Source: Sulfurospirillum sp. (lineage in GTDB: Bacteria > Campylobacterota > Campylobacteria > Campylobacterales > Sulfurospirillaceae). Taken from it: DNA of 64,000 nucleotides. Numbering within the stretch: the stretch's first letter is position 1; each line of letters starts with the position of its first letter. Location: NCBI GenBank assembly GCA_014859685.1, contig JACUTU010000004.1:1-64000 (forward strand), written 5' to 3'. The position numbers were made by a program, and so were the translations under genes. Below, piece after piece: positions 14,951 to 44,160 of this stretch. A model generated the notes under the pieces. The model saw only the letters and a list, made by a program, of their open reading frames with translations, had not been told where the DNA came from and searched no databases.

Positions 14951-14970
14951 AAATGACTTTTGATTAAATT

Positions 14971-15001
14971 TTAAGCATATATTATAGTTTAAAATGCTTA
15001 A
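14971..15001 (+). promoter_or_regulatory. 8-bp inverted repeat in the cheX-like/pyk divergent region
   Basis: TTAAGCAT (14971-14978) and ATGCTTAA (14994-15001) flank a 15-nt AT-rich spacer midway between two divergent genes. It could be an operator; the chance level is moderate because of AT content. Confidence 0.35.
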
Positions 15002-15023
15002 TAAACTGCTAAAATACTGATTA

Positions 15024-15090: not shown

Positions 15091-16536
15091 ATGAATAAAA
15101 AAACAAAAATTTTAGCAACAGTTGGGCCATCGAGCGATAAACTAGAAGTTTTGGAAGGGCTTATTAACGCTGGTGTTAATGTATTTAGACTCAATTTTTC
15201 TCACGGTACGCATGAGTATCATTTTGAAACTATCGAAAAAATCAGACAAGCTTCTATAAATGTTGGCAAAAAAATAGGAATTTTGCAAGATATCTGTGGT
15301 CCAAAAGTAAGAGTTGGTACGCTTGAAGAAGATTTTTACCTCAAAACCGGTGATAAATTGATTTTTGAAAAACGCATTATTGAGGGTAAAAAAATAGATG
15401 AACATACTTATAGGCTCTGTATCAACCAACCACAAATTCTCGATATGCTCAAAATTGATGAGTATATCTATCTTTATGATGGAAATATCAAAGCAAAAGT
15501 AATTGCCATAGGCGATGAGATCGTAACAAATATAGAAAATGACGGAAAACTCTCTTCAAACAAAGGTGTTAATTTTCCAAATACGATCATCAATATAGAA
15601 GTTATTACGCCAAAAGATGAAAAAGATTTGCTTTGGGGCGTGCAAAATGGCGTTGATTTTGTTGCAATCTCTTTTGTGCAAAATGCAAATGACATACTAA
15701 AAGCTAGAAAGATACTCAATGCACACAAATCACGAGCGCAAGTTTTTGCAAAGATAGAAAAATTTGATGCAGTTGAGAACATAGATGAGATTTTAGAAGT
15801 GAGTGATGGGGTGATGGTAGCTCGTGGTGATTTGGGTATAGAAGTGCCTTACTATAAAGTTCCAAGTATTCAAAAAAAGATTATTAGAAAAGCAAACGCC
15901 CAGTCCAAGCCAGTTATTACAGCGACTCAAATGCTTCTTTCTATGGCTGAAAATGAGATGGCAACGCGTGCTGAGATCAGTGATGTGGCAAATGCTGTAC
16001 TTGATGGAACGGATGCTGTGATGCTCTCAGAAGAGAGTGCGATCGGAAAAAATCCTGTACATGTAGTCGAAGTTATGGCAAATACGATCAAAGAAACCGA
16101 ACAAGTATACCCATACAATAAATTTAACCGCTATGCGTTTTTGGATGAAACAGATATTATGTCCGAATCAACAGCAAAACTAGCACAGCGATTGGATGTC
16201 GATGCGGTTATTTCAATCACAAGTTCTGGTATGAGTGCTAGAAAACTTGCAAGGTATCGTATCAAAAATGATATCTATGCGATCACGCACGATGAGAGAG
16301 TGGCGCGTTCGCTTACTATCGCTTGGGGCGTGAAGCCTATTATGAATATTGAAGCGGGAACACTCAATATCATGCTCGCAAGAACAATGCAAAAAGGTTT
16401 AAACCGCGGATTTATTGATAAAAATAAAACTTACATTGTCACAGCTGGTCATCCAACGGGTGTAGAGGGAAGTACAAACTTCATCAGGCTTTTACGCAAG
16501 GAACAGATTGAGTATTATCTTGAAATGCTTTCGTAA
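15091..16536 (+). CDS. pyk: Pyruvate kinase
   Basis: Converts PEP and ADP to pyruvate and ATP. It contains KILATVGPSSD and NVFRLNFSHG at the N-terminus, the catalytic-loop VFAKIEKFDAVENID, MVARGDLGIEVP, TQMLLSM, and the ADAVML-like TDAVMLSEESAIG. The allosteric C-domain ends with IVTAGHPTGVEGSTNFI. The start is ATG 15091 with AAGGAG 6-11 nt upstream; an extension to 15037 is unsupported. Length 481 residues is normal. Two inverted repeats lie in its upstream region. Confidence 0.97.
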   Translation: MNKKTKILATVGPSSDKLEVLEGLINAGVNVFRLNFSHGTHEYHFETIEKIRQASINVGKKIGILQDICGPKVRVGTLEEDFYLKTGDKLIFEKRIIEGKKIDEHTYRLCINQPQILDMLKIDEYIYLYDGNIKAKVIAIGDEIVTNIENDGKLSSNKGVNFPNTIINIEVITPKDEKDLLWGVQNGVDFVAISFVQNANDILKARKILNAHKSRAQVFAKIEKFDAVENIDEILEVSDGVMVARGDLGIEVPYYKVPSIQKKIIRKANAQSKPVITATQMLLSMAENEMATRAEISDVANAVLDGTDAVMLSEESAIGKNPVHVVEVMANTIKETEQVYPYNKFNRYAFLDETDIMSESTAKLAQRLDVDAVISITSSGMSARKLARYRIKNDIYAITHDERVARSLTIAWGVKPIMNIEAGTLNIMLARTMQKGLNRGFIDKNKTYIVTAGHPTGVEGSTNFIRLLRKEQIEYYLEMLS

Positions 16537-41515: not shown

Positions 41516-42130
41516 ATGGCAATTAGCGACAATCAAGTTGTTTCAATCAGCTATGAATTGAAAGACTTTGTTAGTGGAGAAGTACTCGATAGCAATCTTG
41601 ATGCTGCTCCACTTTCATTTATCGTTGGCAAAGGTCAAATTATCCCAGGCTTAGAAAGTGAAATCAAAAATCTTAGCCTAGGTGATGACGCCCAAATCAA
41701 AGTTGCTGCAAAAGATGCATATGGTGAATATGATGAAACTGCAGTGCAAACACTTCCAAAAGAGCAATTTGCTGGTTTGGAATTAAGTGAAGGTATGACA
41801 CTTTATGGTCAAGGCGAACATGGTGAAACAGTTCAAGTAACAGTAAAAAGCTTTGATGAAGAAAGTGTAAATGTAGATTTTAACCATCCATTGGCTGGCA
41901 AAGAACTACTTTTTGCAATCTCAGTCGCAGAAGTTCGTGATGCTAGTGCAGATGAATTACTCAATGGCTTTGTTGGCAATGCTAGTTCAGGAGGTTGTGG
42001 ATGTGGTTCAGGTGACAGTTGTCACACTACATATGAAGATGAAAACGATCATCATCACGATCATGAAGGTGGATGCTGCGGTGGTGCAAACCACAATGAA
42101 GATGGCAGTGGATGCTGTGGATCACACTAA
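41516..42130 (+). CDS. slyD: FKBP-type peptidyl-prolyl isomerase SlyD
   Basis: 204 residues. The FKBP domain (SFIVGKGQIIPGLESEIKNL) has an inserted chaperone flap. The C-terminus is a metal-binding tail rich in Cys and His (GGCGCGSGDSCHTT, HHHDHEGGCCGG, GSGCCGSH), as in nickel-handling SlyD proteins involved in hydrogenase maturation. AAGGAG precedes the ATG. The tail codons overlap the start of the next gene. Confidence 0.95.
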   Translation: MAISDNQVVSISYELKDFVSGEVLDSNLDAAPLSFIVGKGQIIPGLESEIKNLSLGDDAQIKVAAKDAYGEYDETAVQTLPKEQFAGLELSEGMTLYGQGEHGETVQVTVKSFDEESVNVDFNHPLAGKELLFAISVAEVRDASADELLNGFVGNASSGGCGCGSGDSCHTTYEDENDHHHDHEGGCCGGANHNEDGSGCCGSH

Positions 42131-42884
42131 GTATATAGCAAGATCAAGGGCTTCAGTAGAAGCCCTAAAATCTGCTAATCTTCTCAAAAATCTCAATATA
42201 AATGCACTCATATATGGTGAATCAGGCGTCGGAAAAGTATCCTTATGTAAACATATACTTCCTGAATCAATCGTAGTTGATGGAGAAAATTTAGATGAAG
42301 TTTTAGAGTGTTTAAGCACTCAAAATAATCTAATTATTAAAAATTTTCATCGTATTGGTAATTTTCAAAAAGTAAAATCAGTTATCAAATTACATAAAAC
42401 ACGCATCATAGCAACATCTCTAGATAAGTTAAGTGAAAAAATAGCAGATGAATTTTTTAGCCTTAAAATCACTATTCCACCACTTCGTGATAGACTAGAA
42501 GATGTGTCCTTGCTTGCGGAAAAATTTTTTAAAGAAGTTTCGATAGCCTTTGGTTTTTTAAAAAAAAATGAACTTTCTTTAGAAAATTTTTCACTGGATT
42601 TATCCCAAAATTGTTTTTCACTGCGAAAATCTATCTATTTAAAATACCTCATCAATAGCATGAGTGAGCAAGATGTCTTAGAGATGATGGAAGCTTTTTT
42701 AAGCAAAAAAGTAGGCGGTAAAGATGATTATAGAGAACTTCTTTATCTTTTTGATGTGCCATTGATCAAGTGTGGTTTTAAAAAATTTCATTCGCAACTT
42801 TTGATGAGCGAAAAGTTTGGACTCAATAGAAACACTCTTCGTAAAAAGATAAACGACTACAAAGATACATACCAATTACAATAA
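42117..42884 (+). CDS. Reduced sigma-54-activator-like protein with Fis-type HTH
   Basis: About 255 residues. A Walker A NALIYGESGVGKVSL near the N-terminus, a sensor I/arginine-finger-like PPLRDRLEDVSLLAEKFF in the middle and a C-terminal Fis-type helix-turn-helix EKFGLNRNTLRKKIND. The GAFTGA loop that contacts sigma-54 and a normal Walker B are absent, and there is no receiver domain. It may be a regulator that no longer drives sigma-54, or a DNA-binding adaptor. The start is uncertain: GTG 42117, or ATG 42096/42102, all inside the slyD tail in another frame. Campylobacter has fabD here directly, so this is an accessory gene. Confidence 0.7.
   Translation: MDHTKYIARSRASVEALKSANLLKNLNINALIYGESGVGKVSLCKHILPESIVVDGENLDEVLECLSTQNNLIIKNFHRIGNFQKVKSVIKLHKTRIIATSLDKLSEKIADEFFSLKITIPPLRDRLEDVSLLAEKFFKEVSIAFGFLKKNELSLENFSLDLSQNCFSLRKSIYLKYLINSMSEQDVLEMMEAFLSKKVGGKDDYRELLYLFDVPLIKCGFKKFHSQLLMSEKFGLNRNTLRKKINDYKDTYQLQ
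42147..42166 (+). repeat. 8-bp GC-rich hairpin at the slyD/regulator junction
   Basis: AGGGCTTC-AGTA-GAAGCCCT, a perfect stem with a 4-nt loop, 17 nt after the slyD stop and about 30 nt into the downstream gene. It has no T-run, so it is not a standard terminator. Confidence 0.8.
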
Positions 42885-42900
42885 TTCAAAAAGGACCATA

Positions 42901-43824
42901 ATGAGTAAAAATATTATGATTTTTCCGGGTCAGGGCTCTCAAAGCATTGGCATGGGCAAAGATTTTTATACCAATGACCCACTAGCTAAAAAAATGATTG
43001 ATGATGCAAGCAACAGGCTTGATATAGATTTTACGCACCTACTTTTTGAGCCAAATGAAGATTTGGAACAAACACAATTTACCCAACCAGCTATTTTACT
43101 CATCAGTCTTGTTTCGTACAGACTTTTTGAGCGAGAAGTACATAAAAAACCACTCTATGCACTTGGACATTCTTTAGGCGAATTTTCAGCATTGGCTAGT
43201 GTTGGTGCGCTTGATTTTCTTGATGCGCTTGAACTTGTTCATAAAAGAGGTGCATTTATGCAAAAAGCTTGTGCGAATATAGATGCTGGTATGATGGCGC
43301 TTTTAGGGCTGAGCGATGAAAAAACGCATGAAATTATCACAGCACAACAAAAACTTGGCAAGCAAGTGTGGGCAGCAAATTATAATTGTGATGGGCAAAT
43401 TGTTATAGCAGGTGCAAAAAAAGACTTGCTCACTTTGGAGGATACCTTTAAACAAGCTGGTGCCAAAAGAGCGTTGGTTTTAAATATGTCCGTGGCAAGT
43501 CATTGTCCACTTTTGCAATCAGTTCAAGAACCGTTGATGGAGTATCTTGAGCAATATCTGCGGAACAGCTTTCAAGCACCTGTGATCTCAAATGTGAGCG
43601 CAAAAGCTTATGATAGTAAAAAAGAAGCATTAGAATTGTTAGCAAATCAACTTGTAATGCCTGTAAAATACAAACAATCAATTCTAAGCGTAGATGACGA
43701 GGCTGATCGTTTTATAGAGTTTGGCGGTAAAGTTTTGCAAGGACTAAACAAGCGATTGGCAAAAAAACCGACGCTAAGTATTGTTGATATGGCAAGTTTA
43801 GAGCAAGTTTTGTTAAGTTTATAG
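42901..43824 (+). CDS. fabD: Malonyl-CoA-ACP transacylase
   Basis: 307 residues: IFPGQGSQSIGMGKDFY at the N-terminus, the catalytic serine in GHSLGEFSAL, and VASHCPLLQ with the catalytic histidine. Loads malonate onto ACP for fatty-acid elongation. AAAAAGGA precedes the ATG. A short ORF of uncertain status begins immediately after its stop. Confidence 0.97.
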   Translation: MSKNIMIFPGQGSQSIGMGKDFYTNDPLAKKMIDDASNRLDIDFTHLLFEPNEDLEQTQFTQPAILLISLVSYRLFEREVHKKPLYALGHSLGEFSALASVGALDFLDALELVHKRGAFMQKACANIDAGMMALLGLSDEKTHEIITAQQKLGKQVWAANYNCDGQIVIAGAKKDLLTLEDTFKQAGAKRALVLNMSVASHCPLLQSVQEPLMEYLEQYLRNSFQAPVISNVSAKAYDSKKEALELLANQLVMPVKYKQSILSVDDEADRFIEFGGKVLQGLNKRLAKKPTLSIVDMASLEQVLLSL

Positions 43825-44160
43825 ATGCCAATAACTCTTGTTCAAAATATTCCAAAAATCAAGGATTCTGTTTTTGAAGATGTTTATAGCCTTGATGAGA
43901 TTGTGAAATTTGTAACACTGAGTGCTAGTAAGGATATGGTTTTTGGAGCGGTTCAAGACTTATAAGCCTAAAAGCCCAAACACTTTTTTCAAGCAGCATT
44001 GTTTGAAAAAGAGTGTTTACATGTAAGCTTGGATCAACATCTACGTATAGCCCAAAAATATGTATTGCGAATTCAAAATCAAAAGGAGATTGTAAGATAT
44101 GAAGATAGCCATCATGGGTGCAATGCCAGAAGAAATAGCCCCGCTTTTAGAGTATTTTAA
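43825..44160 (+). pseudogene. Interrupted ORF between fabD and mtnN
   Basis: An ATG directly after the fabD stop opens a 46-codon frame (MPITLVQNIPKIKDSVFEDV...) that ends at TAA 43963. The same frame continues past TAA-GCC-TAA with protein-like sequence (PKHFFQAALFEKECLHVSLD, RIAQKYVLRIQNQKEIVRYE) until TAA 44158. Two stops one codon apart in an otherwise coherent frame suggest a decayed gene of about 110 codons. I do not recognise the family. The alternative is a genuine 46-residue peptide plus non-coding DNA. The part after the stops contains a 15-bp hairpin with one bulge. Confidence 0.4.
43978..44018 (+). repeat. 15-bp quasi-palindrome in the interrupted ORF
   Basis: AAACACTTTTTTCAA (43978-43992) pairs fully with TTGAAAAA-g-AGTGTTT (44003-44018), leaving a single bulged G and a 10-nt loop. 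It is followed directly by a TACATGTAAG palindrome. Confidence 0.85.

Follow-up and report, generated by a model that had tools for sequence, protein, structure and literature searches.

The window analysed here, a stretch of 64,000 nucleotides from a Sulfurospirillum sp. genome, carries between slyD and fabD an uninterrupted reading frame of 255 amino acids, GTG to stop, whose product we call X (Table 1). A sequence-only reading of the same DNA had proposed a GAFTGA-less relative of the sigma-54 activators at this position, and both the open frame and the conservation of the family bear this out. It had also placed the start of X inside the slyD tail in another frame, as is indeed the case; the start of X overlaps slyD in 39 of the 41 loci with the slyD-X order, and by exactly 14 nt in 33 of them, which suggests translational coupling of the two genes. 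On the other hand, the idea that X was inserted between slyD and fabD had to be dropped: the slyD-X-fabD order recurs across many families, within a wider arrangement (tolB-pal-ybgF-slyD-X-fabD-mtnN-ttcA) that is recurrent at slyD-type loci, and the absence of X elsewhere is therefore more simply explained by loss. The X family belongs to the Campylobacterota, and its best named match among the matches listed, where the window's own record may be missing, comes from the Sulfurospirillum sp. UBA6810 assembly (69% identical).

Table 1. Features of the X locus and of a candidate X site elsewhere in the window.
Feature	Position	Strand	Basis
slyD (FKBP-type isomerase, Cys/His-rich tail), gene 5' of X and overlapping it	41516..42130	+	
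X, minimal NtrC-like regulator, 255 aa, GTG start	42117..42884	+	ORF list and translation; relatives
Overlap of the X GTG start with the slyD 3' end, 14 nt, different frame	42117..42130	+	
Hairpin GGGCTTC-AGTA-GAAGCCC, 7 pairs, X codons 11-17	42148..42165	+	
Walker A (P-loop) GESGVGK, residues 34-40	42216..42236	+	
Strand at the Walker B position, LIIKNF, residues 72-77, KN instead of DE	42330..42347	+	strand order of the model, by eye
DEFFSL, residues 111-116, where NtrC has an arginine-bearing segment	42447..42464	+	
PPLRDR, residues 121-126, not an arginine finger	42477..42494	+	
Fis-type HTH; recognition helix NRNTLRKK, residues 237-244	42792..42863	+	
fabD, gene 3' of X, gap of 16 nt	42901..43824	+	
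Operator-like site TGATTAAATTTTAAGCA, 11/12, candidate X site upstream of pyruvate kinase	14961..14977	+	pattern search
TAAAAT, -10-like box, 32 nt after the 14961 site, spacing as at glnA	15010..15015	+	

The protein begins directly at its AAA+ domain, with no receiver in front of it, and retains the Walker A motif GESGVGK together with a Fis-type helix-turn-helix (HTH) whose recognition helix reads NRNTLRKK. These two motifs had been recognised from the letters alone, as had the absence of a receiver, of GAFTGA and of a clear Walker B. Across 73 X proteins, the Walker A residues G34 and G39 are invariant (73/73 each) and K40 is kept in 71, whilst the DE pair of Walker B occurs in none; nor was any orthologue seen among the 73 that keeps GAFTGA or a string resembling it. 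The stretch PPLRDRLED had been misread as resembling an arginine finger: its counterpart in E. coli NtrC is PPLRERRED, which lies past the finger region, and its R126 is present in 73/73. The segment that does align with FREDLFHRL of E. coli NtrC, which we take to hold the arginine fingers, is IADEFFSL, from which the arginines are gone; none is conserved in columns 110-115 (R stands at column 112 in 8 of 73). Nine residues are identical in all 73 proteins, namely G34, G39, R126, N165, N237, R238, T240, L241 and K244.

The AlphaFold model of X is confident (mean pLDDT 89.2, pTM 0.75), and together with structural comparison it points to the AAA+ fold of the sigma-54-activator family followed by a Fis-type HTH. 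Matching to the PDB, which bears mainly on residues up to 182, relates X to NtrC4 (Z 17.5, rmsd 2.2 over 180 residues) and to VpsR (7v2b, Z 15.2). Among curated sequence models, TIGR01818 (NtrC) ranks top for the window protein (E 5e-10), the protein for which this ranking was seen; it is the sole curated model to match all 37 of 37 X proteins at E<=0.01 (best 6.4e-16), with matches that fall far below its 558.6-bit cut-off, and the FlgR model matches 27 of the 37 (best E 3.1e-8). These matches make a firm case that X arose from NtrC by reduction, with the P-loop and an NtrC-type HTH kept.

Matches to X are found in 55 of 60 relatives, and a profile search for orthologues confirms a conserved protein, present in 166 of 397 Campylobacterota genomes at E<1e-40, a count outside which stand 204 further genomes with weak matches only (best about 6e-9), taken to be ordinary activators. 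Families f9, f11 and f14 probably correspond to the Arcobacteraceae, Campylobacteraceae and Helicobacteraceae, judging in part from gene loss; within f11 and f14, X is found only in G266, G349, G364, G381 and G208. In the Sulfurospirillum source genome rpoN is present, plus two strong PF00158 activators (FlgR and a second), whereas 47 of the 166 genomes with X give no match to rpoN (PF04552); 13 of these 47 are single-contig assemblies (G087, G106, G107, G256, G260, G283, G289, G295, G326, G339, G353, G370 and G415). A sigma-54 role of X is thus unlikely, and considering also that GAFTGA, the Walker B pair and the finger arginines are missing, X cannot be a standard sigma-54 activator. The earlier suggestion of a non-sigma-54 regulator gains support from these rpoN-less genomes, and from the sigma-70-type -10 boxes at the candidate target promoters described below.

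A second protein, Y, accompanies X without exception: 166 of the 397 genomes have both and 231 have neither, ten Y matches at E 1e-5 to 1e-3 being left uncounted. We first met Y as a protein of 204-251 aa at nine distant loci (L046-L054), either 3' of X or converging on it. At slyD-type loci Y was not found in the stretches around X, and a genome search then located it; in the Sulfurospirillum source genome it lies at G000:C12:81169-81834, unlinked to X and 5 nt after rpoD. In 16 of 20 further Y loci Y likewise follows rpoD on the same strand, the exceptions being L083, L084, L089 (where split rpoD pieces lie upstream) and L092 (where X does).

The model of Y (pLDDT 90.4, pTM 0.63) has a PAS-like start and, from about residue 100 on, a kinase-like CA domain. 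This matches the CA domain of NtrB (1r62) with Z 14.5 (rmsd 2.9, 120 residues), a score level with that of RetS (Z 14.6) and approached by many other kinases; the PAS assignment draws on weak sequence matches below curated cut-offs as well as on the structural model. Among kinase models, the NCBIfam NtrB model matches the most Y proteins (12 of 39 at E<=1, best 6.1e-5), with AtoS matching 2 of 39 and the general PAS model 14 of 39 at the same threshold. When ten Y proteins were taken singly, three matched NtrB, two of them in the first half of the CA domain (E 0.2 and 0.061) and one in the PAS region (0.0078), the last of which matches AtoS slightly better (0.0032). An hhalign comparison of Y with E. 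coli NtrB covers the PAS start alone, at a probability of 4.9%, and no significant hit came from searching PDB sequences with the profile of Y. As for the chemistry of a kinase, no column has H in more than 10 of the 39 Y proteins, and none of the 39 holds an HExxN-like string to mark the phospho-accepting histidine of a DHp domain, or a D.G.G or G.G[LIMV]G string to mark the G-boxes for ATP. Y seems to descend from NtrB by reduction, a weaker case than that of X and NtrC.

In several families X or Y has genes of nitrogen control in its neighbourhood. The ammonium-linked genes amtB and/or glnK are next to one of the two at L048, L049, L051, L107, L108, L109, L111 and L118, and one gene away at L053 and L117; at L048, L049, L051 and L111, X and amtB or glnK diverge from either side of a palindrome. 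The neighbour of X at L101, L102 and L119 is a protein of 846-862 aa, and the copy that was checked, that of L101, is a GlnD-type PII uridylyltransferase (PF08335, 1.6e-26). No amtB, glnK or glnD-type neighbour was seen at other loci of the same set, e.g. L046, L047, L050, L052 and L054. PII itself is found in 166 of the 166 genomes with X, plus 44 genomes without it. In the f14 genomes that lack X, PII gives matches of about 1e-19 to 1e-26, far weaker than those seen elsewhere, and may have diverged in this family where X and Y are absent. A gene of 276-295 aa also recurs next to or near X in the distant loci L053, L101, L102, L117 and L119; its copies start alike by eye, and the one searched (L119) has no Pfam match.

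The palindrome, TGATTA-N5-TAATCA, was first read in amtB upstreams, and since it was picked there, glnA provides an independent test, as does the source genome. We scanned 300 nt upstream over 12 scored positions, with block shuffles and the upstreams of other genes as controls. In genomes with X, 31 of 36 glnA and 32 of 52 amtB upstreams reach at least 10/12, and 21 of 36 and 25 of 52 reach at least 11/12. In the controls, 10/12 or better is reached by 5.1% of the block shuffles (n=1800) and by 5.0% of the upstreams of other genes (n=716; 1.7% at >=11). A TANAAT box begins 31-32 nt past the site in 28 of the 31 glnA upstreams that have one. At the 32 amtB sites the spacing is more varied: TANAAT follows after 29-33 nt in 12 and after 19-23 nt in 8, with one site counted in both, and stands at neither preferred distance in 13; in shuffled sequence the 29-33 nt window contains it in 4.3%. 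A strict -24/-12 sigma-54 motif, uncalibrated on flagellar promoters, is present in none of 98 glnA and amtB upstreams, duplicates and genomes without X included. In genomes lacking X, no glnA upstream reaches 10/12 (0 of 5), and among the nine upstreams of such genomes two of amtB do, L128 with 11/12 (at -197, far upstream) and L226 with 10/12. The glnK upstreams, many of them inside operons, are mostly without a site (8 of 63 from genomes with X reach 10). We do not read the palindrome as an FNR-type site, since the half-sites of the FNR box are spaced differently.

The source genome holds 12 sites with at most one mismatch, versus 3 for the reversed pattern. One is centred 74 nt upstream of glnA; ten lie inside ORFs, two of which are short (63 and 70 aa), and the remaining one is the window site at 14961, upstream of the pyruvate kinase gene (15091-16533); a divergent gene that encodes a CheX-like domain starts 11 nt away from it. 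At two mismatches the whole window has no excess of operator-like sites (9 found, 8.66 expected).

The form of the palindrome appears to follow the recognition helix of X. With the helix read in each genome, and the upstream of G406 (helix unread) left aside, 71 glnA and amtB upstreams come from 48 genomes with an NRN helix; 61 of them reach at least 10 for TGATTA, ten fall below 10/12, and one reaches at least 11 for a second form, TGTATA-N5-TATACA. With an NRI or NRA helix (23 upstreams, 16 genomes; f9, f12, f19-g23) the picture is reversed: 19 reach at least 11 for TGTATA, 14 of them with 12/12, and 1 of the 23 reaches at least 10 for TGATTA. The genomes are related, and the counts given here and above are of non-independent events. 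NRV and NRG helices are few and mixed, G051 (NRV) and G048 (NRG) having TGATTA at glnA and G418 (NRV) scoring 11/12 for TGTATA; some helix substitutions leave the operator form unchanged. Within f9, which is split for X and Y, 14 of 17 amtB upstreams from genomes with X reach at least 11 for TGTATA, versus 0 of 4 from genomes without X and 0.4% of shuffles, and a -10 box stands at 31-32 nt in 11 of the 14; an eighteenth f9 upstream with X, that of L107, scores 10/12.

The relationships, co-occurrence, linkage and palindromes of X and Y are properties of the sequences themselves, and we consider it probable that they reflect NtrBC remodelled: a phosphorelay-free, sigma-54-free, PII-linked regulator of glnA and amtB. 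In the mechanism that we posit, X would bind as a dimer to TGATTA-N5-TAATCA upstream of glnA and amtB, and bound X would help sigma-70 RNA polymerase to start their transcription. Y would pass on to X, through direct contact, what PII (GlnK) signals about nitrogen, in the fashion of NifL and NifA; reading PII via its CA-like domain, it would restrain or release X, and the switch would run without phosphate transfer, ATP-driven remodelling or sigma-54. The link between X and the operator is circumstantial, and we infer the binding of PII by Y from homology and co-occurrence, and activation over repression from the position of the sites. Since many lineages encode Y together with rpoD, Y may also touch the sigma-70 holoenzyme directly. 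We lean, if only slightly, towards a fuller account in which, early in the Campylobacterota, a whole NtrB-NtrC system became a pair without phosphorylation chemistry, ATP-driven remodelling or sigma-54, a pair that still reads PII and runs glnA and amtB at sigma-70 promoters, and whose operator changed together with the helix.

This remodelled pair shares much with NtrB-NtrC (GlnL-GlnG in E. coli), which gives the top family match for X and the commonest kinase model for Y: the palindrome has the 6-5-6 layout of the E. coli NtrC site, the candidate targets are glnA and amtB, and PII is present in all 166 genomes with X and Y. Both targets belong to the NtrC core regulon in the Proteobacteria (PMC5343134). 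Yet X is without receiver, GAFTGA and Walker B, and Y without a conserved DHp histidine and G-boxes, whilst rpoN is dispensable, the -10 boxes are of sigma-70 type, and the two genes are often unlinked, with Y beside rpoD. As far as the sequences can tell, X and Y derive from NtrBC with the chemistry removed. NifL-NifA offers another parallel, that of a PAS and kinase-like protein paired with an activator-like one; however, NifA keeps GAFTGA, NifL has more domains than Y, and the targets are nif genes. The models of Y and X match the NifL and NifA chains of 9qq6. NifL senses GlnK via its C-terminal nucleotide-binding domain, and NifA is a sigma-54-dependent activator (PMC6490700).

Relatives that dispense with GAFTGA are also instructive. 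X goes beyond the NtrC of Rhodobacter capsulatus and Caulobacter in having neither receiver nor Walker B pair. To our knowledge, VpsR of Vibrio cholerae has no NtrB-like partner. Unlike X, it keeps the phosphorylation-site region and binds c-di-GMP, the latter according to the title of 7v2b. All of these act at sigma-70 promoters: the R. capsulatus and Caulobacter proteins, GAFTGA-less with an L1 deletion, need their aspartyl phosphorylation site for activation, and VpsR (spelt VspR in the source), a GAFTGA-less bEBP, acts with no phosphorylation (PMC10274813).

If the remodelling is real, X and Y would fill a gap in the nitrogen control of the Campylobacterota, with a defined candidate operator and targets, and a phosphorelay would be reducible to a protein-contact switch with its core targets unchanged. 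The Arcobacter butzleri genome paper speaks of an apparent lack of NtrB/NtrC and RpoN (PMC2147049); because f9 is split for X and Y, this species may truly lack the pair. A Proteobacteria-wide regulon study omitted the epsilonproteobacteria for having no orthologues of its target regulators, NtrC included (PMC5343134). Among the matches listed in our literature search, which covered subscription journals thinly, no paper on X or Y was found.

The direction of control is not something that sequence shows, and X could instead repress glnA and amtB under nitrogen excess, with Y relieving the repression. We think this unlikely, as the sites lie upstream of the -10 box and not over it, at two preferred distances, 19-23 and 29-33 nt, that differ by roughly a turn of the helix, and upstream sites at such helically related distances from the -10 box are typical of activators. 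It is a fairly remote prospect that the palindrome belongs to another regulator altogether, with X and Y acting elsewhere and sharing only the nitrogen context: the circumstantial link and the two amtB upstreams that score 10-11/12 for TGATTA in genomes without X would fit this, but the glnA upstreams of such genomes have no site at 10 (0/5), the TGTATA form in f9 goes with the presence of X (14/17 versus 0/4 at >=11), the operator form tracks the recognition helix, and at L048, L049, L051 and L111 the site sits between X and the divergent amtB or glnK.

As an antagonist, which the sequence-only reading had offered as one option, or as a subunit without activity, X would join the true sigma-54 activators (in the source genome FlgR and a second one) and dampen them; an activator-like AAA+ fold minus its catalytic parts suits such a role, as does a source genome with rpoN and two strong PF00158 activators. 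This we set aside as unsupported and very improbable, given that 47 of 166 genomes with X have no rpoN match, that X carries a strongly conserved HTH of its own, and that its linkage and candidate sites indicate nitrogen genes. That X is simply the inactive leftover of an activator gene, as the lost Walker B pair, GAFTGA and finger arginines might suggest, is scarcely credible beside nine residues identical in 73/73 proteins, a perfect pairing with Y and, among the matches listed, a single copy that contains a stop (G404); decay was set aside on residue conservation.

The first codons of X carry a further layer. The GC hairpin that had been placed at the slyD/X junction does exist and is conserved, but it starts 31 nt from the first base of the X start codon and so lies within X. 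It is fully paired in all 32 loci that encode RAS.EAL, a count that omits 7 of 39 distinct segments encoding other residues there, which keep 5 to 7 of the 7 pairs. Two pairs covary via synonymous codons (A-U 23, G-C 8, G-U 1; C-G 24, U-A 7, U-G 1), with a covariation score of 0.221 versus 0.116 in shuffles and 15 cells versus 4.0, both above 500 of 500 shuffles; pairs changed on both sides number 2, no excess over shuffles (mean 1.8). Perhaps the RNA is itself under selection here, in addition to the protein, as an element that tunes the translation of slyD and X.

Further downstream, we had considered the fabD-mtnN gap of relatives as a home of Y; it encodes a carbon-nitrogen hydrolase instead. 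This gene is intact between fabD and mtnN in several relatives, and window positions 43826-44098 hold its remnant, three pieces of which match the L057 protein (PF00795) with tblastn E values of 1e-8 to 7e-8.
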